Virus record (IMG/VR): IMGVR_UViG_3300009506_000702
Span: 1-31,309 of that record
Direction: 5' to 3' (one strand)
Source of the DNA: a virus
Length of the DNA stretch: 31,309 bases
The position numbers were made by a program, and so were the translations under genes. Positions 10,858-21,372 of this stretch are shown here, piece by piece; the first letter of the stretch is position 1, and each line of letters opens with the position of its first letter. Under the pieces are notes generated by a model. It was not told the DNA's origin. It worked only from the letters and a program-made list of their open reading frames with translations, and ran no database searches.

Positions 10858-10899
10858 ATGGGCGTTTACCGTGGAGCTATGAATGGGTGCGATTTATGA
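10858..10899 (+). CDS. Possible 13-codon leader peptide
   Basis: ATG five bases after the ribosome binding motif GGAGAGCGA (10844-10852) opens a 13-residue frame, MGVYRGAMNGCDL, ending in TGA inside the start of the next gene. In seven other places this exact motif is followed at once by a real start, so ribosomes probably initiate here. It could couple or tune translation of the gene at 10883. Confidence 0.35.
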   Translation: MGVYRGAMNGCDL

Positions 10900-11833
10900 A
10901 AATGGAACGTGGGTGATTGAGGGCAATTTGCCCCTCGGTATCACTACGGGCCAAACGGACAGCGGGTTGGTTTTCTACTCGGCTGAGGGAGAGAGCCAAC
11001 CCGAGTGTTTTGGAATGTGGTGGGAGAAGTACGGCCCACCCGAGGAAACGGCCGAGTGCCGGTCATGCGTATTCACCGATCTGTGTCTCGAGAAAATGGC
11101 CAAGGCTCGATTGCCCGAGGCTCGAGCCCGCGTGAACAAGCTCAACCCCTCGTTGGAGGAGTTGTCCAAAGCGTTGGACGTGAATGACCAAGCGGTGTTG
11201 GCTATCGTGGCGCATGCTCGAGGTGATTTGCCGGCTACTCCACCCAAGAAAAAGAGAGCCCCGGTCACCGATGAGACGGTGACGGCTGTGGCTTTGGGTG
11301 AGGAGCCCGCTACGTCGGACGGTGGTGAAAGGGGAAAACCGCGGGACCCTTCCCATGCCCCGTCTGCCAAGAGTGCGGTGGATGGGGCACGTCGAAAAAA
11401 GGCTCCGAGTGCCAGGCGTGCGAAGCAACCGGACGTACCGCGCAAAAAGACGTGGACGTGGGGGACACACACATTCACCAAGCGATTTCTGAGGGAGAGG
11501 CGGCAAAACAATCTGATAGGGGCGATCCCAATTGGGACGGTGCTCGAGACCAAGTACAAGAAAACGCCGTATCAATGCACGTGCCTCAACAACGGATGGC
11601 AGTACCAGGGGGAGAGGTTTCCAACCCTGCAAGCGGTGACCGAGGCGATAGTTGGCAAGGTGGAGCGGCCCAAGTCTCCCAAGTCGGGCAACCGGGCACA
11701 GGGGACGCGCAAGCTGTGCAACTATTCAGCGGCCAAGTTTTGGAAGCTCCACAAGACGGTGCCCGAAATTCTCAAGAGTGGGTGCTTGCCCGGATCGCGT
11801 ACAGCGGACACACGACTGAGCAAAACGGGGTGA
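10883..11833 (+). CDS. Protein with cysteine cluster and RAMA/DUF2924-like domain
   Basis: 316 residues; GGAG lies six bases before the ATG. Residues ~40-70 hold a cysteine cluster C-X16-C-X2-C-X5-C starting CFG (ending CRSCVFTDLC). A disordered, K/P/S-rich linker spans ~120-190. The C-terminal part has IPIGTVLETKYKKTPY, then NNGWQYQGERFPTLQAV and AAKFWKL. This matches the spacing of RAMA/DUF2924-type domains (G..L......g..y.G..f.sl..A...itg....fW), which are found with restriction-modification and phage proteins and are thought to bind DNA. The final ~20 residues overlap another coding frame, and the true end may differ. Confidence 0.6.
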   Translation: MGAIYENGTWVIEGNLPLGITTGQTDSGLVFYSAEGESQPECFGMWWEKYGPPEETAECRSCVFTDLCLEKMAKARLPEARARVNKLNPSLEELSKALDVNDQAVLAIVAHARGDLPATPPKKKRAPVTDETVTAVALGEEPATSDGGERGKPRDPSHAPSAKSAVDGARRKKAPSARRAKQPDVPRKKTWTWGTHTFTKRFLRERRQNNLIGAIPIGTVLETKYKKTPYQCTCLNNGWQYQGERFPTLQAVTEAIVGKVERPKSPKSGNRAQGTRKLCNYSAAKFWKLHKTVPEILKSGCLPGSRTADTRLSKTG

Positions 11834-11913
11834 GGCTCTATTGGTCAAATGCCATGCAACGTTGGTTGACGTGGGAACAAGCGTGGGAGGCTGCTAATGG
11901 CCGTCCAGCTTAG
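11782..11913 (+). CDS. Small overlapping ORF, ~43 aa, or frameshifted end of preceding gene
   Basis: In the -1 frame relative to the preceding gene, a GTG at 11782 opens a protein-like frame rich in Trp (RLYWSNAMQRWLTWEQAW) running into the polymerase start. The stretch after 11833 has no other + strand gene, and its codon use resembles the neighbours. Either this is a separate small gene with a weak binding site, or the upstream protein shifts -1 on GGGG just before its TGA (ACG GGG TGA). Both are unproven. Confidence 0.4.
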   Translation: MLARIAYSGHTTEQNGVRLYWSNAMQRWLTWEQAWEAANGRPA

Positions 11914-13861
11914 GGCGTTTTATCCCGAGTACGATACCGACCCCCGCAAGCAAATCATCACGACCGCGGACAGGTTTGAAAAGCTCGTTCGATTCATTGC
12001 GAGCCGAGACAAATTCGTTTTCGACTATGAGACATCCGGAACGGCATGGTTCAAACATGCCGAGGCGGTTGGCATCGGTTTGGGTGCGTGGGATGACAAC
12101 GGGACTCTGTGGTCAGCTTACGTCCCATTCCGACATCGGAGCGGGGAGCAACAGTTGGACATCGGGGTCATTGGCCCGGCTATCCGCATGCTCCTCGCTT
12201 CCCCCAACGTGATGAAAATTTGCCACAACATCAAATTCGAGGATCATTTTTCGCGCAAAGAGGGATGGACGCTGGCCGGACCTCGGTATGACACCATGGT
12301 TGCGGCGCGTCTCTACAATGACAATGAGGCTTTGAAGCTCGAGCACAGGGCCGAGGTGGACCTTGGTATTGAGGGCGCCAAGAAATGGGAGCAAACGCTC
12401 AATCAAGAGGTGCGCCAATTGGCTCGAGCCAACAAGATGGGGGTGAAGCTCTACAAGTATCTCCATGGCTACTCTGAGGTGAACGTGGGGCTCTGTGGCG
12501 TCTACGGATGCACGGATGTTTTGCACACGGGATGGCTCCACGAGAAATACGAAAAGTGGGGAGTCTCGAAACACTACCCAAGGATTTGGCCCACCGAGAT
12601 GGAATTGACTCGGGTGCTCTGCGACATGGAGCAAACCGGTATGCCGGTGGATACCGAATACCTCAACCAACTACGTGGGCAAGTTCAAGACGCCAAGGCC
12701 AGGCTCGAGGCTGAGCTAAGTCGGCAATTGGGGGGCCACGTTTTCAATCCGGGCTCGGACGATGAGGTGAGAGAGCTTTTGAAGTGGATGGGGCTCCCTC
12801 TCGAGAAACGGACCAAAGGCAATCAATTGTCTGTGGACAAAGAGGTCTTGGACCAATTCTCGGATCACAACGTTGTGGTCAAGCTCCTCTTGGATTGGCG
12901 TGAAGCGGACAAAATCGACACGACCTATACCGCGTCCATTCTCAATCTCTTGGATGCCAACAACGTGGTCCACGGAAATCTCAAGCAAGTAGGGACCAAC
13001 ACGGGCCGGCTCTCATGCGAGGAGCCCAACTACCAAAACATGCCGTCCGAGAATGATGACCGGGCCATTCGTCACAGCGGCAAAAAAGTCAAAGAGGGTG
13101 GAGTGGACCCGTGGAGCATCCGGAGAGGGTATCCCGTCCGTGGTGTGGATTGGGTGCGTCTCTTTTTGGACTACTCTCAAATTGAGCTACGGGTGCTCGG
13201 CCACTACAGCAAAGACCCCATCATGGTGGGCGCTTTCATCAATGGTGAGGACATCCATGATCGTACCGCCAAAGAGGTGGGCGCAATTCTCCAACGTGAG
13301 TGTCCGAGGCGTGTGGCCAAGGTGGTCAATTTCGGGCTGTCCTATTGCATGAGTGAGATTGGTCTCCACCGACAAGCCAAGGTGCCGTTGGATGAGGCTG
13401 AGCATTTCCTTGCCGCGTTTTTTCAACGGTACAGGGGCGTGGAGCGTTTCAGGCTCGAGCTTTGGGCGCAAGCAAGGCGTGACGGCTGCCAATGGAACAA
13501 TCTTTTTGGCCGGACACGTAGGCTCCCGGATTTGAGGAGCGAGACGTTTTGGAGAAAGAAACGAGCCGAGCGCCAAATGGTGGCGAGCGCAATCCAGGGG
13601 ACCGCGGCCGAGCTTACCAAAGAGAGCTTGGTGCGGATTGACCGTTGGTTGAGGGACGAGAAAATTCCAGGTTTCTTGGTCAACACGGTCCACGATGAAA
13701 TCCAAATTGACGTACCTCGAGAGTATGCTCCCGTGGTCGCAAAGGCGTCCAAGGCGTTGATGGAAGCGTACCCCGAGTTTGACCCGATCCCGATCATCAC
13801 GGATTGCGAAATCTCGGAAACGAATTGGGCCGAAAAGCACGGCTACAAGGTGGCGGCATGA
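11897..13861 (+). CDS. Family A DNA polymerase with 3'-5' exonuclease
   Basis: 654 residues. Exonuclease motifs: Exo I FDYETSG (D43, E45), Exo II CHNIKFEDHF (~109-118), Exo III YGCTDVLHT (Y203, D207). Polymerase motifs: A LFLDYSQIELR (D425), B (O helix) RRVAKVVNFGLSYCM (K475, F479, Y483), C NTVHDEIQID (H599-D600-E601). There is no 5'-3' exonuclease domain. This is the phage replicative polymerase. The usual Gly after the O-helix Tyr is Cys (C484), and Phe at F479 (E. coli F762) predicts discrimination against dideoxynucleotides. SD is GGGAGG seven bases upstream; the stop overlaps the next start. Confidence 0.95.
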   Translation: MAVQLRAFYPEYDTDPRKQIITTADRFEKLVRFIASRDKFVFDYETSGTAWFKHAEAVGIGLGAWDDNGTLWSAYVPFRHRSGEQQLDIGVIGPAIRMLLASPNVMKICHNIKFEDHFSRKEGWTLAGPRYDTMVAARLYNDNEALKLEHRAEVDLGIEGAKKWEQTLNQEVRQLARANKMGVKLYKYLHGYSEVNVGLCGVYGCTDVLHTGWLHEKYEKWGVSKHYPRIWPTEMELTRVLCDMEQTGMPVDTEYLNQLRGQVQDAKARLEAELSRQLGGHVFNPGSDDEVRELLKWMGLPLEKRTKGNQLSVDKEVLDQFSDHNVVVKLLLDWREADKIDTTYTASILNLLDANNVVHGNLKQVGTNTGRLSCEEPNYQNMPSENDDRAIRHSGKKVKEGGVDPWSIRRGYPVRGVDWVRLFLDYSQIELRVLGHYSKDPIMVGAFINGEDIHDRTAKEVGAILQRECPRRVAKVVNFGLSYCMSEIGLHRQAKVPLDEAEHFLAAFFQRYRGVERFRLELWAQARRDGCQWNNLFGRTRRLPDLRSETFWRKKRAERQMVASAIQGTAAELTKESLVRIDRWLRDEKIPGFLVNTVHDEIQIDVPREYAPVVAKASKALMEAYPEFDPIPIITDCEISETNWAEKHGYKVAA

Positions 13862-14707: not shown

Positions 14708-16099
14708 ATGACAAGTTATCAGCAACCACCACCCCCACCCGGCTATCCGCCGCAACAGGCTCCGGCCGGGTATCCGCCACAGTACGGCGGACAACCACAG
14801 CAACCACAGGGCTATCCCCCGCAACCCCCGCAAGGGGCTCCCGGTGGATACGGAGCCCCACCACCTCCACAGGCGGGCGGTTATCCCCCGCAAGGTGGTG
14901 GTTACCCACCACAGCAACAGGCGCCCGCGGGCATGCCTCAATTCTATGAGGCCGATGAGGCGGCCACGGCCGCGGCGTTGCAGCAATCCACGGCAAATTC
15001 GGGCCGGCAAGGCGGACCGTTCCCCAACTATCTCCGGGTGCCCGGACCTCGTGGGGAGCAATCGTGGAAGGATGTCCATACCGGATACGAGGGCGCGATC
15101 ATCATTCGTGTGTGCCCACCATGGGCGGCCGGCAAGCCGGTTTTCGTGGAGACCAAGACCCATTTCTACAAGTCGTCTCAGAATCCCAAGGGCAAGGTGA
15201 TTGGCTTCACGGGTGAGGACGGTCTTTTCATGGCGGCCATCCGAATGGCATCCGAAAGTCCGGACCCGAGGCTCCAACAGCTTGCCACCAACTACGGGCG
15301 AGTGCGGACCCAATACATTTGGAACGCATTGGACCTTTCCAATCCCGCGTCCCATTACGGTGACGATGGGATCATGCGTCCCTACATCCTCCCGGCCGGG
15401 GCTCAGCTACAGAATGACCTCAAGAGAGTCATTGAGGCTCGAGGCGGCATCAATGCGGTGATCCATCCTCACGGTGGACGGCCGTTGCGGTTGATCAAGA
15501 AAAAGACCGGACCCGAGGAGCGCAACGTTGAATACAGCGTGATCGATTTGAACCCGGCACCATTGGACGGGTATTTCTATCCCGCGTTGCAGAATCTTTG
15601 GGATCTCGAGGCCCAAATCAAAACACCAACCCATGAGGAGGTTGTCTCGGCCATCCAAGAATTGGGGCTCCCGATGCCGGCAACGGGGCAATCGTTTGCC
15701 CAAGTGCCAGCGAGCTACCAGGCCGGGCCACAGGCTCCCTATCCCAATCCGTATCCGCAACCGGGGCAACCCCCGGCTCAGCAACCGGGCTATGGTGCGC
15801 CACCTCCCCCACAGCAACCGAGCTACGGGGCGCCACCTCAGCAACCGGCATACGGGGCTCCCCCTCAACAACCGAGCTATGGGGCTCCCCCTCAGCAACC
15901 GAGCTATGGGGCTCCTCCCCAAGCTCCGGGTGGCTACCAGCAACCGGGAGGCTACCCTCCACCTCCACAGCAACCGGCTGGACCACCACCGATGTCTCCA
16001 CCCCCGGTGCAATCGCAACCGGGAGCGGCGCCGGGGTATCCCCCACAAGCCGGGGCTCCGGTCGGGCAACCACAGGGGGGAGGGCAAGCCCCTTTTTAG
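14708..16099 (+). CDS. gp32-like ssDNA-binding protein with low-complexity tails
   Basis: 463 residues from the ATG after GAGGAGAGTGACC. Residues ~1-80 and ~330-463 are P/Q/G/Y-rich and disordered. The C-tail includes four tandem QQPSYGAPP-type units and ends QAPF, keeping the terminal Pro-Phe of bacterial SSB tails without the acidic residues. The central ~240 residues (IIIRVCPPW, THFYKSSQNPKGK, RTQYIWNALDL, GIMRPYILPAG, PHGGRPLRLIKKKTG, EYSVIDLNPAPLD) follow the layout of phage gp32-type SSBs. It lacks the internal zinc cysteines of T4 gp32. It would coat ssDNA for the PolA replisome and the downstream RecA. A probable -1 frameshift at its stop codon adds a cysteine domain. Confidence 0.75.
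   Translation: MTSYQQPPPPPGYPPQQAPAGYPPQYGGQPQQPQGYPPQPPQGAPGGYGAPPPPQAGGYPPQGGGYPPQQQAPAGMPQFYEADEAATAAALQQSTANSGRQGGPFPNYLRVPGPRGEQSWKDVHTGYEGAIIIRVCPPWAAGKPVFVETKTHFYKSSQNPKGKVIGFTGEDGLFMAAIRMASESPDPRLQQLATNYGRVRTQYIWNALDLSNPASHYGDDGIMRPYILPAGAQLQNDLKRVIEARGGINAVIHPHGGRPLRLIKKKTGPEERNVEYSVIDLNPAPLDGYFYPALQNLWDLEAQIKTPTHEEVVSAIQELGLPMPATGQSFAQVPASYQAGPQAPYPNPYPQPGQPPAQQPGYGAPPPPQQPSYGAPPQQPAYGAPPQQPSYGAPPQQPSYGAPPQAPGGYQQPGGYPPPPQQPAGPPPMSPPPVQSQPGAAPGYPPQAGAPVGQPQGGGQAPF
15812..15919 (+). repeat. Four tandem 27-bp units in the SSB tail
   Basis: Units start at 15812, 15839, 15866 and 15893, encoding QQPSYGAPP, QQPAYGAPP, QQPSYGAPP and QQPSYGAPP. The third and fourth are near-identical at DNA level, suggesting recent unit duplication. 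Confidence 0.85.
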
Positions 16100-16284
16100 G
16101 GCGGTCCCTACCGGGAGGCCGGGAGCGGTGCTTTGGTCGATTCGAGCTTGAGGATCGCTACTGTATCGACTGCCCGAGCCACGTCCGGAACCGTTGCATC
16201 ACGACCACTCCCGGAGCCCAAGACAAGCTCCGGGGTGGTGATGCAGGGCTTGAGGAATTGAAACAGAAGCTAAAAGGCGCGTGA
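16090..16284 (+). CDS. -1 frameshift extension of the SSB: 62-aa cysteine-cluster domain
   Basis: The slippery heptamer C CCT TTT (16090-16096), in the SSB frame, is followed immediately by TAG. Slipping back one base continues at TTA (16096) for 62 codons to a TGA at 16282-16284. The extension contains RCFGRFELEDRYCIDC, then HVRNRC (C-X11-C-X2-C-X7-C), and ends in a helix (LEELKQKLK). No ATG, GTG, TTG or CTG occurs in this frame downstream of the SSB stop. Six bases after the heptamer a stem GG-TCCC/GGGA-(GG)-CC (16103-16120) could stimulate slippage. Its stop overlaps the RecA ATG as TGATG, the usual junction in this genome. A lost T in the T5 run would give the same picture. Confidence 0.65.
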   Translation, partial: PFLGRSLPGGRERCFGRFELEDRYCIDCPSHVRNRCITTTPGAQDKLRGGDAGLEELKQKLKGA

Positions 16285-17480
16285 TGGCTACCAGGAAAAA
16301 AGCGGCGAGCAAGGCCAAAGCAAAACCAAAGGGCTCTCCAAAAAAGAGAGCCGTGAAGGCCAAGACTCGTGTGAAAGCAAACCCCGAGGCTGAGTACGCG
16401 GCCACGATGAAAAAACAAGGGGTAGCCACCATCTCTCAACTCTCCAACGATGAGGCATTGCCGAATATCCGCGGGAGGATTTCGACTCAGAGCTTGGCAT
16501 TGGATGCCTTGTTGCGAAATCCACGGGAGCCCGTGGGGTGGAGGGGGATACCGTTGTCTCGGGTGACTGAGATTTTCGGTCCCCCCTTCATTGGCAAATC
16601 CACTCTATTGGACCTCATTTTTGGGTCCGTTCAAAAGGACGGTGGGACCGCGATTTTGGCCGACACGGAGACCTCAAGGGACCGTCACTACGTCAATCGT
16701 CTCGGGGTGGATTTGGATCGTCTCCAATACATGGAGTTTGTGGACGGCGTGGTCCATATCGAAAACGTGATCAAGGCTTTCATCCACACCATTGAGTGGT
16801 GGAAAGCAAACTATCCGGACCAAAAGGTGGTGATCGGATGGGATGCTCTTGGCTCCACGGCCACCAAAGACTCGTGGGACAAGGGCGTGGAATTCGACAA
16901 GGCCAACCAACCCGGTGCCGCGGCTCGAGCCATGAATGAGGCGAGCCGTCACCTACCTCCCAGGCTGGCCGGCACCAACATTGCGCTCGTGATCATCAAC
17001 CATGAGTACGAAATGATCCGGACGGGAATGGCAGCCAAGTTTGGAGGAAAGAAACGGGAGACCTACGGTGGCCATGGTGTGCGGCATGCGGACAGTTTGC
17101 GAATCAAGCTCTACTCGGCCGGCACGTACATCAAAGACGCGGCCGGGCGCATGCTCGGGCGCGTGGTAGCGGCCGAGCTAATCAAAAATCGTCTTGGTGA
17201 ATCGAGCGTCACGGCCCACGTTCCCATCATGCAAGGCATTGGTGTGGACAACGTTTGGACGGTGCTCGAGGATTTGAAAAAGGAAAAGATAGTGGTCACC
17301 AACGGTAGTTGGTCGGCCATCAACATAGACGGTCAGCAAATCAATTTTCAGGGATGGGCCGGTCTCAAGCTCAAGTGCGTTGAGGACGAGTCTCTTTTCC
17401 CGAGATTGCTGAGCGTTTGGAATCAGGTGACAGGAAATGCCCCTTTACACGTACCAGTGTCCGAAGTGTCGGACGATTGA
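16284..17480 (+). CDS. RecA/UvsX-like recombinase
   Basis: 398 residues from the ATG that overlaps the frameshift ORF stop (a GTG three bases upstream is also in frame). The first ~35 residues are very rich in K, R and A, an extra DNA-binding tail. The core has Walker A IFGPPFIGKST (Lys ~105), ILADTETSRD with the catalytic-type Glu, Walker B QKVVIGWDALGS, a likely L2 segment, and GGHGVRHADSLRIKL, which matches the GG.a..f.a..R region of RecA-family proteins. It would catalyse strand exchange on SSB-coated DNA. The gene overlaps the next one by 44 bases. Confidence 0.8.
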   Translation: MATRKKAASKAKAKPKGSPKKRAVKAKTRVKANPEAEYAATMKKQGVATISQLSNDEALPNIRGRISTQSLALDALLRNPREPVGWRGIPLSRVTEIFGPPFIGKSTLLDLIFGSVQKDGGTAILADTETSRDRHYVNRLGVDLDRLQYMEFVDGVVHIENVIKAFIHTIEWWKANYPDQKVVIGWDALGSTATKDSWDKGVEFDKANQPGAAARAMNEASRHLPPRLAGTNIALVIINHEYEMIRTGMAAKFGGKKRETYGGHGVRHADSLRIKLYSAGTYIKDAAGRMLGRVVAAELIKNRLGESSVTAHVPIMQGIGVDNVWTVLEDLKKEKIVVTNGSWSAINIDGQQINFQGWAGLKLKCVEDESLFPRLLSVWNQVTGNAPLHVPVSEVSDD

Positions 17481-17682: not shown

Positions 17683-18284
17683 ATTTTGATGAGGCCATGG
17701 ACATTTTGCGTGACCGCTACAAAGCGGACCCGGTTGCCAGGCAAGCGCTCACGGTGGTTGGTACGCACGCCACCAAGACGGTTGAGGCGGCGCGGTTGAA
17801 ATTCATTGAGGATACTGAGACCCAATTTGAAAAGGGCAACAAGATCGTAAAGTGTGTGGTGTGCCAGGAAAGGCACACTATCTATTATCGGACTATTTGC
17901 GAGAAAATGGTTGGTGCGTTGGGTGAGTTGTGCCGAATTTACTACCTAACTCGTGATTGGGTCCACTACTCCAAAGCGGTAAAGGTGGTGGAGCCTTTTC
18001 ACGATTACGCCAAATTGCAATGGTGGGGATTCATGGTTCCGAAACCGAGGGACCTTGATGATTCAAAACCATCGAATGGCTATTGGCGGCCCACACCCAA
18101 GGCATACGATTTTTTGAACGGACGGATTAGGGTCCCATCTCATGTTTGGGAGCGGGATTCAGAGCCCAAGGCGTGGTCCAACGATACGATCAACAGGGAT
18201 GAGGTGAAGTACAAGAAATTCGTATTTGACGACCTTTGGAAACCGATTGACGTGGAGAATTCGAGACAGGTGATTTTTCGATGA
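17679..18284 (+). CDS. Conserved phage protein of unknown function with CxxC
   Basis: 201 residues from the ATG overlapping the preceding stop. It has CVVCQERHTIYYRTICEKMV, then a long hydrophobic-aromatic region, LQWWGFM, and NGYWRPTPKAYDFLNGRIRV with VPSHVW. This arrangement (CxxC, a Y/R-rich helix, W-x-L block, G-W-x-x-T-x-x-G-x-x-F near the end) is one I associate with an uncharacterised protein common in replication regions of tailed phages. A small nucleic-acid-binding protein is likely; no enzymatic motif is visible. Confidence 0.65.
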   Translation: MNFDEAMDILRDRYKADPVARQALTVVGTHATKTVEAARLKFIEDTETQFEKGNKIVKCVVCQERHTIYYRTICEKMVGALGELCRIYYLTRDWVHYSKAVKVVEPFHDYAKLQWWGFMVPKPRDLDDSKPSNGYWRPTPKAYDFLNGRIRVPSHVWERDSEPKAWSNDTINRDEVKYKKFVFDDLWKPIDVENSRQVIFR

Positions 18285-19282
18285 TCGTTTTTAGTGACGT
18301 ACATCTCCGGGAGGAGACGGCCGATGTTGTGTTGGGTGAAGTGTTGCCAGGATTGCGCCAAGCGTGTCTCCAACACGGTCGGGACCCCGGCGGCTACTGC
18401 GAGGCGGTTTGCCTCGGTGATTTTTTCCATATCCGCTACAAGATTGATGCGCGGATTCAGAATTTGGTGGCGGACGAATTCAGAGCTTGGTCTGAGGCGG
18501 GCATCCACACGAGAATCCTGCCCGGTAATCACGATCAATATGATGTGAACGGGCGCAATGCGCTCGAGCTTTTCAACGAGATTCACCACGTTGATGTCTA
18601 CACGCAACCAACCGTGGACGGTGACGGCGTGTGGATACCCTATCGGCGCAACCCCGAGGACATCTTGCGGGCTCTGCAAACGTTGCCCCGAAACGTCAAC
18701 CTACAGGGAAAGCTCGTCTTGTGGATGCACCATGGGGTGAGGGGAGCGTGGGCCAATGACAACATACAAAATCGGGATGGATTGGAGCCGGAGAAATTCG
18801 AGGGCTTCCACATTGTTCTTTGTGGCCACTACCACAAAAGGCAAACCGTGGGGCGAGTGCATTACGTTGGTTCCCCATACCAAACACGGGCCGATGAGTC
18901 CGGACAAGCTAAAGGCTACTGTTCATTCGATGGTGAAACGCTACGCTATTTTGACGCCATTTGGGGACCACGTTTCCACAGGCTCGAGGTACGAGCGGGC
19001 GAGACGTTGGATCTCTCGGGCGTGGCTCCACGTGACGAGGTGCGTGTCCGGACTGTTGGGCCGGGTGCTGAGAGGTTGGCCGAGGAGCTAGGCAAGCAAT
19101 TGGCCGGCTCCGGTATCGAGCGGCATACCGTGACCCCCGAGGTGGAGCCCCCCGAGGCTCGGTTGGATGTCCAGGCCAATGCCACCATGGATGACTACGT
19201 GAGAGCTTACGTGGCGCAATTCGGTGGCGAGTTGGACCCCAACAGGCTCGTGGCCACGTTCAAGGAATTGGTAGAGGCATGA
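18281..19282 (+). CDS. SbcD/gp47-like exonuclease subunit
   Basis: 333 residues. All metallophosphoesterase motifs are present in order: FSDVHLRE (motif I), CLGDFFH (II), LPGNHDQYD (III), LWMHHG (IV) and LCGHYHKRQ (V). The C-terminal ~120 residues form the capping and partner-binding part. It forms the nuclease of the Mre11/Rad50-type complex with the next gene, overlapping by ATGA, and resects ends for the RecA-like protein. T4 gp47 (339 aa) is nearly the same length. Confidence 0.9.
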   Translation: MIVFSDVHLREETADVVLGEVLPGLRQACLQHGRDPGGYCEAVCLGDFFHIRYKIDARIQNLVADEFRAWSEAGIHTRILPGNHDQYDVNGRNALELFNEIHHVDVYTQPTVDGDGVWIPYRRNPEDILRALQTLPRNVNLQGKLVLWMHHGVRGAWANDNIQNRDGLEPEKFEGFHIVLCGHYHKRQTVGRVHYVGSPYQTRADESGQAKGYCSFDGETLRYFDAIWGPRFHRLEVRAGETLDLSGVAPRDEVRVRTVGPGAERLAEELGKQLAGSGIERHTVTPEVEPPEARLDVQANATMDDYVRAYVAQFGGELDPNRLVATFKELVEA

Positions 19283-21372
19283 GAATCGAGGCTCTTGAAT
19301 TGCACAACTATGGCTCGTTTCACGGGAGCCACGTTTTTCCGTTGGCCAACCGTGGATTGACCATGGTGCTCGGAAAGAACGAGGACGAGCCCCGAATGAA
19401 TAGTAACGGGGCCGGGAAATCCTCACTCTTTGACTGTTTGGATTGGACTCTTTTTGGCGTGATCCCAAAAGGGGACCACGTGGACAGCGTGATCAATGAT
19501 GAGGAGTCGGAGGCGCGTGGGGTAGCTCGATTGTTCGATGAGGAGCGCGGGCTACCCCTCGTTGTCCAGCGTACCAAGAAAAGGAACAAGGGAGGCACGC
19601 TCGAGTATTGGTTGGGAGACCAACACGTCCAAGCCCAAGACACCAAAGAGACCCAACGGCTCCTCGAGCTTGAGCTTGGGTTGGACCGGGATGTTTTTCA
19701 TTCGGCCGTGCTCTTTGGTCAGAACGACATCAAACATTTTGCGGACGCCACGGGCGGTGAGCGCATGGACATGCTCACCAAGATTTTGCCCGAGTTGAAC
19801 GAGATAGACGGATGGCTCGAGAAAGCCAAAGCCGTGGCCAAGGATATTGATGACCAACGGCAACGGGCTGAAATGGAAGCCTCGAGCCTACAAGGCCAGC
19901 AACAGAGCTTGGAGCAAACCTACTCGAGCAACGATGTCCAAATCCAACGATGGGAAGCGGACAAGGCTCAACGGCTACAGCAAATCCAGGTGGACATTGA
20001 CGCGGCGTTGGCTCGGTACAATGCCGTCAAATCTGAGCTTGTGGATGATACTCAGGCCAAGGGGGAATTGGCAGCGCTCGAGGCCCAAATGGCTCAACGC
20101 CAGGCGGACCAAGACAGGCAACGGCAAGACATAGACATCCGACTGAGACAGGCGCTCGAGCAAGGGACCAAGGCTCGGTCCACCCTCGATTTGTGCAAGT
20201 CCGCGGTGTCCCGTCTCCAAGGGGAGGTGGCGGCGCTTCAATCCAAGGTTGGTGTTTGCCCCGAGTGTGGTCAGCCGGTGACTCAAGAGCACATGGCGGG
20301 GAGAATTGCCGAAAAGCAAAACGAGTTGGTGGCCAGGCAAACCGAGGTCTCTCAGTTGGAGGCCAACGTGACGAGCTTGCGAGCATGCTACGTGGAGGTG
20401 GACGCCGAGAGAAAACGGTTTGAGGAGTCCGTGCGAGCGGACAATCAACAGTTTGGTGAGGTGGTGATCCAAGCGCGTCAACGAGTGGCCTACATGGACC
20501 AACGGCGCGGTGAGGCGGCTCAATTGGAGGCTCGGTGGCGTGGGGAGCAACAGCGGTTGCAGCAAGCCCAAGAGGCCACCAACCCATTCGTGGGTGAGCA
20601 ATGGAAGCTCCACGATAGGCTCCAAGGGCTGTCCCAAGGCGCACACCATCAAAGACAGTTGGCGGCAAAGCATGCCGATGATCTCCGATACTTCGATTTT
20701 TGGGTGGAAGCGCTCGGGTCCAAGGGGCTCAAAAACTACATCTTGGATGGGCGGCTCCAAGAGATGACGGACGCGGCCAACCAATGGGTCAAGTTATTGA
20801 CCGGGGGCACCATTTGGATTCGATTCGAGACCCAAAAGATGGGGCGCTCCACCAAAAAGCTCACCAATGATCTCAACGTCCGGGTGTTTCGCTACAACCC
20901 CAACGGGAGCATCACGGAGCGCAATTACCGGTCATGGTCGGGCGGTGAGAAAAAGCGAGTCTCATGGGCCATTGATTTTGGCCTCTCGAGGCTCGTGGCG
21001 GCTCGAGCCCGCAAGCGCTATGACCTGTTGGTCTTGGATGAGCTTTTCTCCTACGTGGACGCGGCCGGTGGTGAGGCCGTGGTGGAGATGTTGTCCCATC
21101 TCAGGCAAGAGAAAAACTCAATCTTTGTGATAGAACACGATGCCGATTTTCAGGCGCATTTCGAGAATCACGTTTGGGTCCGTCTCAAGAGTAGACGGAG
21201 CGTGATTTTGGAGAGGGAGAGCGACGATGAGCGAGCCCAAGGGTTTCAAGGTGACGGACAAGCGGGGGAGCAAGCCGTGGAGAAAAAGAAACCGCCAAGA
21301 AAGAAAAAACGCGGTGGTGTACGAGTTGACCCCGATGTTCGCAAAAAGCGACCGCCAAGAAATCGAGCTTGA
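19279..21372 (+). CDS. SbcC/gp46-like ATPase subunit
   Basis: 697 residues. Walker A is NSNGAGKSS (Lys ~47), with the first Gly replaced by Asn as in other phage members and a short insertion before it. A long coiled coil is interrupted by the zinc hook VCPECGQP (C327, C330). The ABC signature WSGGEKKR (~554), Walker B LLVLDELFSYVD (Asp ~587) and the H-loop IEHD follow. The C-terminal ~50 residues are K/R/P-rich and overlap the next gene by 146 bases, so this tail is either a genuine basic extension or tolerated double coding. It drives end resection with the SbcD-like subunit. Confidence 0.9.
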   Translation: MRIEALELHNYGSFHGSHVFPLANRGLTMVLGKNEDEPRMNSNGAGKSSLFDCLDWTLFGVIPKGDHVDSVINDEESEARGVARLFDEERGLPLVVQRTKKRNKGGTLEYWLGDQHVQAQDTKETQRLLELELGLDRDVFHSAVLFGQNDIKHFADATGGERMDMLTKILPELNEIDGWLEKAKAVAKDIDDQRQRAEMEASSLQGQQQSLEQTYSSNDVQIQRWEADKAQRLQQIQVDIDAALARYNAVKSELVDDTQAKGELAALEAQMAQRQADQDRQRQDIDIRLRQALEQGTKARSTLDLCKSAVSRLQGEVAALQSKVGVCPECGQPVTQEHMAGRIAEKQNELVARQTEVSQLEANVTSLRACYVEVDAERKRFEESVRADNQQFGEVVIQARQRVAYMDQRRGEAAQLEARWRGEQQRLQQAQEATNPFVGEQWKLHDRLQGLSQGAHHQRQLAAKHADDLRYFDFWVEALGSKGLKNYILDGRLQEMTDAANQWVKLLTGGTIWIRFETQKMGRSTKKLTNDLNVRVFRYNPNGSITERNYRSWSGGEKKRVSWAIDFGLSRLVAARARKRYDLLVLDELFSYVDAAGGEAVVEMLSHLRQEKNSIFVIEHDADFQAHFENHVWVRLKSRRSVILERESDDERAQGFQGDGQAGEQAVEKKKPPRKKKRGGVRVDPDVRKKRPPRNRA

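Follow-up and report, generated by a model that had tools for sequence, protein, structure and literature searches.

A candidate programmed −1 frameshift that would append a four-cysteine module to a phage single-stranded DNA-binding protein

In a virus record from IMG/VR, the gene for a gp32-like single-stranded DNA-binding protein (SSB) ends in a slippery heptamer that touches its stop codon, and a small cysteine-rich module is encoded behind that stop in the −1 frame. The best explanation, which we consider probable given the sequence comparisons below, is programmed −1 frameshifting that would yield one SSB form with a Pro-Phe tip and another with a cysteine tail. The record comprises 31,309 bases, and this whole stretch is called the window. 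Its replication/recombination block comprises genes for a DNA polymerase, the SSB, a RecA/UvsX-like recombinase, and SbcD-like and SbcC-like proteins. The relevant features, by position in the window, are as follows:

11897-13861: DNA polymerase gene, part of the replication/recombination block
14708..16099, + strand: gp32-like SSB gene, so assigned by profile comparison with gp32-like SSBs; zero-frame product of 463 aa with the C terminus ...GGGQAPF
16077..16084, + strand: GGGGAGGG, a Shine-Dalgarno-like run 5 nt upstream of the heptamer; possible stimulator, not in all relatives
16090..16096, + strand: slippery heptamer C CCT TTT, XXXYYYZ in the zero frame
16097..16099, + strand: SSB stop codon TAG, directly 3' of the heptamer
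16096..16284, + strand: −1-frame extension, 62 codons plus TGA (16282-16284), without a usable start codon
16129..16197, + strand: four-cysteine CFG module CFGRFELEDRYCIDCPSHVRNRC, in the −1 frame
16284..17480, + strand: RecA/UvsX-like recombinase gene (phrog_97, E 1.7e-48); its ATG at 16284 overlaps the TGA of the extension (TGATG)
18281-19282: SbcD-like gene
19279-21372: SbcC-like gene

An earlier note, made from the letters of this DNA, had proposed a programmed −1 frameshift fusing a cysteine domain to the SSB, and our comparisons support that proposal at the level of sequence. The local layout was as the note had described: the SSB gene ends GCC CCT TTT TAG with the heptamer touching the stop (16090-16099), and the −1 frame runs for 62 codons into the TGATG overlap with the recA-like gene (16096-16284). 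Translated past the SSB stop, this frame reads PFLGRSLPGGRERCFGRFELEDRYCIDCPSHVRNRCITTTPGAQDKLRGGDAGLEELKQKLKGA and ends at the TGA at 16282-16284, with its cysteines spaced CFG-x8-C-x2-C-x7-C. The claim that the extension has no possible start of its own also held, as no ATG, GTG or TTG precedes the cysteines; the first such codon is a TTG at 16258, far behind them. The open −1 stretch 5' of the heptamer in the window contains no ATG, GTG, TTG or CTG. A second CFG-cysteine motif, which the note had reported elsewhere in the genome, was found at 11006 with a longer first spacing, within a gene (10883-11833) that precedes the polymerase gene and has a weak DUF2924 match. Separately, a 17,970-base contig (IMGVR_UViG_3300010413_001451) encodes SSB residues 1-176 with 100% identity and ends there, short of the heptamer; it probably belongs to the same phage population as the window.

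Using the window recombinase as a search query, we found three diverged relatives with the same layout: two IMG/VR contigs (L003 and L004) and a Myxococcales MAG (L009, CP070713.1). Their RecA proteins are 57% (L003 and L004) and 59% (L009) identical to that of the window, and their SSBs 52-54% identical. The SSB genes end CCC CCT TTT TGA in L003, ACG CCT TTC TAG in L004 and AAC CCT TTG TGA in L009, so that the seven bases before the stop are CCCTTTT (window and L003), CCCTTTG (L009) and GCCTTTC (L004). The heptamer is thus kept in full in L003 and L009, whereas L004 has the tetramer T TTC only and not a full XXXYYYZ. In all three relatives, a CFG-cysteine module lies in the −1 frame and reaches up to or into the recA start. 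The four extensions have 14 invariant residues in common, and the four cysteines, the F and the G are invariant both in these four and in a set of 15 modules. Because the three independent assemblies, with proteins 52-59% identical, place the cysteine frame in the same −1 register, the T5/T6 sequencing artefact that the earlier note had wished to exclude can be discarded.

The family has four known members, which share ancestry. Profile scans of IMG/VR with the SSB core and RecA returned no members beyond L003 and L004, tblastn of the window SSB core against GenBank phages gave no match, and an SSB profile run against 379 genomes of the phylum of L009 gave one weak low-complexity match and nothing else. 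A DNA-pattern scan of IMG/VR (CCTTTNTRR...CFG...CxxC) produced 31 matches, two of them genuine (L003 and L004); a further match, L106, arose by chance and is an in-frame SSB-CFG fusion. At positions 8591-10015 of L009 (CP070713.1), the phage block breaks within the SbcC-like gene at an N run and is followed by a host-type acyltransferase; this may mark the end of a prophage or a misjoined scaffold, and the link to a Myxococcales host is weak. The four genomes also have a small −1-frame ORF after the counterpart of gene 10883-11833; the overlap reads GTGA (window and L003), ATGA (L009) or CTGA (L004) and probably reflects ordinary coupling.

The assignment of the SSB is based on the family as a whole. 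The four-member family matched a gp32-like SSB profile (probability 96%, P 1.3e-9), and the L003 and L009 proteins matched phrog_1192 (E 2e-4 and 4e-4, respectively). The window protein by itself had no PHROGs match because it is too diverged, and an AlphaFold model (pLDDT 35) was unusable. From this homology and the gene neighborhood, we predict that the window protein binds single-stranded DNA.

Behind the SSB stop, only the −1 frame behaves as a coding sequence. Across the four genomes it scores 1.83 BLOSUM62 units per aligned codon, the other two frames score about 0, and it alone is free of stops in all four homologues. The codon-alignment score and the lack of stops indicate that the extension is under selection as protein in this frame. 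The position of the frame change is fixed by L009, where the heptamer is directly preceded by a TAA in the −1 frame; with this TAA upstream and the zero-frame TGA downstream, the change must fall on CCC TTT. In the window, L003 and L004, the −1 frame is open for 139-167 codons upstream, so these three genomes do not by themselves fix the site, and it is the common motif that does. A start codon for the tail further 5' inside the SSB gene was rejected, as the open −1 stretch in these three genomes contains no ATG, GTG or TTG.

To gauge chance, we examined 392 frames, each running from stop to stop over 150 codons or more, drawn from 20 sequences. An in-frame XXXYYYZ abutting the stop occurred in three, all of them SSB genes (window, L003 and L009). 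The penultimate codon is CCT in all four genomes, while CCT makes up 12/95, 8/74, 5/90 and 4/77 of the SSB prolines in them. Among 146 invariant degenerate residues of the SSB core and RecA, codon choice is identical across the four genomes at only seven, and not one of the 22 invariant prolines is CCT throughout. Since synonymous sites are otherwise near saturation, shared ancestry does not easily explain the penultimate CCT. The Pro-Phe tip, which the earlier note had seen as the part replaced by shifting, is present in the window and not kept in L009, where the SSB ends PL and the slippery heptamer is retained; the motif is therefore not a mere by-product of the tip. Taken together, the motif appears to be conserved beyond chance, though four related genomes are a small sample.

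From the layout, the frame, the conserved −1 product and the slippery site, we infer the following route. Most ribosomes would read CCT TTT and stop at TAG, releasing an SSB that ends in Pro-Phe. On a minority of ribosomes, whose P site holds tRNA-Pro paired to CCT and whose A site holds tRNA-Phe paired to TTT, both tRNAs would slip back one base in tandem (CCT-TTT to CCC-TTT, the simplest route) and the stop would be missed; 62 further codons would then be translated, replacing the tip by the four-cysteine module. The tail would be expected to bind metal (4Fe-4S or zinc) and may provide part of the SSB pool with a contact of its own next to the RecA-like recombinase, and the shift would set the ratio of plain-tipped to tailed SSB, by analogy with dnaX tau/gamma. 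In E. coli, C_CC.U_UU.A,.G and.U shift at more than 0.1% without stimulators, H_HH.U_UU.Y is counted among the most efficient shift motifs, and the tetramer U_UU.Y is weaker, yet shift-prone given a strong stimulator (Sharma et al. 2014, PMC4066793). It is this tetramer alone that L004 keeps.

The earlier note had also placed a stem-loop six bases behind the heptamer. Such a stem-loop can be drawn in the window, but we found no support for it as a frameshift stimulator, as it was neither above shuffles nor conserved. For the first 30-75 nt, z against dinucleotide shuffles ran from +1.0 to −1.8, the stability is unremarkable for DNA as rich in GC as this, and the relatives have a different structure or none, L003 lacking any. 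Pseudoknot-free folding of the four-genome alignment gave no convincing common downstream structure. The Shine-Dalgarno-like run is strong in the window and L009, where it precedes the heptamer by 5 and 8 nt, respectively, and is weak or missing in L004 and L003.

Other phages have gp32-like SSBs that end in the same module, encoded in frame, namely L106, L137, Pseudomonas phage QdP_Psa3 and Bacillus phage SP-15. The SSB gene lies directly upstream of recA in L137, upstream of uvsX in QdP_Psa3 and upstream of recA in SP-15. Given these in-frame fusions, what the window holds in its −1 frame is a module that serves other phage SSBs as their normal C terminus. The earlier note had asked whether homologues carry the cysteine domain as a gene with its own start; there was none with a conserved start in the window lineage, and in other phages it is an in-frame part of a gp32-like SSB. 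In Thermus phiLo and Rhizobium RHph_TM30, the module stands at the C terminus of proteins that could not be assigned to SSBs. CFG-like matches in Rhizobium RHph_Y2_11, Chryseobacterium MA9V-3 and Roseobacter CRP-406 were set aside as not at SSB junctions. In another phage (L126, 2958-3122), a CFG mini-gene about 42 codons long, with an ATG of its own, is found between genes of the tail region, so the module also occurs as a protein by itself.

Two further phages have the module out of frame behind an SSB stop. In contig G383 (L172, IMGVR_UViG_3300001533_001980; 1660-1874), an SSB that matches phrog_1192 (E 1e-5) ends GAA AAA AAC TGA, followed by the module in the −1 frame and then recA. A tblastn search of GenBank phages with this SSB gave no match. 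As the canonical heptamer A AAA AAC abuts the stop and the SSB is not a close relative of that of the window, this looks like an independent −1 frameshift candidate; an in-frame TTG at 1692 and an ATG near 1731 with an SD-like element are possible separate starts. In Listeria phage LIS04 (L167, 2861-3095), the module lies in the +1 frame directly behind the SSB stop (AGT CCC AGT TAA), unannotated and with no start codon before it. The LIS04 SSB matches phrog_1192 and shares 55% identity over 275 residues with that of SP-15, in which the module is in frame. The LIS04 layout may reflect +1 shifting, a recent mutation or an error.

As for the nature of the module, the earlier note had called it a zinc-type domain. 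We leave the zinc label aside, as the four-cysteine motif resembles the 4Fe-4S loops of WhiB and endonuclease III at least as much, in sub-threshold matches. Pfam contains no recurrent family for the module, and three modules weakly match the uncharacterised phrog_3616. A profile of 15 modules had sub-threshold matches that included these 4Fe-4S loops (E 0.05-0.12), and unrelated proteins scored similarly. The spacing C-xn-C-x2-C-x5..8-C, with CxxCP in many members, is shared with WhiB and endonuclease III, at this level a resemblance rather than a demonstrated homology. The module may be a zinc-binding domain or one that holds a 4Fe-4S cluster.

The module could instead be made as a separate small protein, through termination-coupled reinitiation at a codon overlapping the SSB stop, and we give this a small chance. 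Overlapping ATGA and GTGA starts are the usual gene junction in the window phage, the small ORF preceding the polymerase gene apparently begins at such an overlap, L126 has a stand-alone CFG mini-gene, and the junction itself reads TTGA in L003 and GTGA in L009. The overlapping codons are, however, TTA in the window and CTA in L004, with no ATG, GTG or TTG before the cysteines there, so that coupling fits two of the four genomes and frameshifting all four. Reinitiation also leaves unexplained both the heptamer set against the stop and the in-frame SSB fusions of other phages.

Programmed frameshifting likewise accounts better for the data than changes in the mRNA or in the DNA record. Transcriptional slippage on C4T5, by which a U added to some mRNAs would open the −1 frame, could draw on the T5 run in the window and L003, but normally requires longer homopolymer runs, and with only T3 in L004 and L009 we regard it as very unlikely. 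Scarcely credible is a sequencing error or broken gene, in which the SSB would be one continuous frame or the tail a decaying remnant: the window is a metagenomic contig and the fusion is in frame in other phages, yet four independent sequences have the same frame break, and behind the stop protein-level conservation is confined to the −1 frame.

The predicted −1 frameshift resembles the bacterial and phage systems of dnaX tau/gamma, the IS1/IS3 transposases and phage tail-assembly G/GT in its in-frame XXXYYYZ, overlapping −1 frame and conserved register, in a heptamer near the zero-frame stop and in two products with a common N-terminal part, the second of which is here predicted. It differs in lying in an SSB gene, in a heptamer that touches the stop, in having a small cysteine module as the extension, and in that no conserved downstream structure was detected in the window family. 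Phage programmed frameshifting is known mainly from tail-assembly genes (PMC3483164). The earlier note knew of no such case among gp32-like SSBs, and we found no earlier description of frameshifting in phage SSB genes in the literature searched, with most subscription journals outside that search. The in-frame SSBs of L106, L137, QdP_Psa3 and SP-15 share with the window lineage the SSB core, a low-complexity linker and the C-terminal CFG-Cx2C-C module, with recA/uvsX downstream as seen for L137, QdP_Psa3 and SP-15. In those phages the module is always present, whereas a slippery stop precedes it in the window lineage, for which a form without it is predicted as well.

More tentatively, the SSB/cysteine-module junction might be a recurrent recoding point, at which slippery stops evolved in unrelated phages (CCCUUUN UAG/UGA in the window family, A AAA AAC UGA in L172 and perhaps a +1 site in LIS04), keeping a set ratio of plain-tipped to metal-tailed SSB at the replication fork, comparable to dnaX tau/gamma. 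If the frameshift occurs as predicted, standard gene calling separates an SSB from one of its domains, and in LIS04 the module is wholly unannotated. The finding points to a C-terminal cysteine module of phage SSBs, as yet uncharacterised, that is encoded beside recA in phages of very different hosts.
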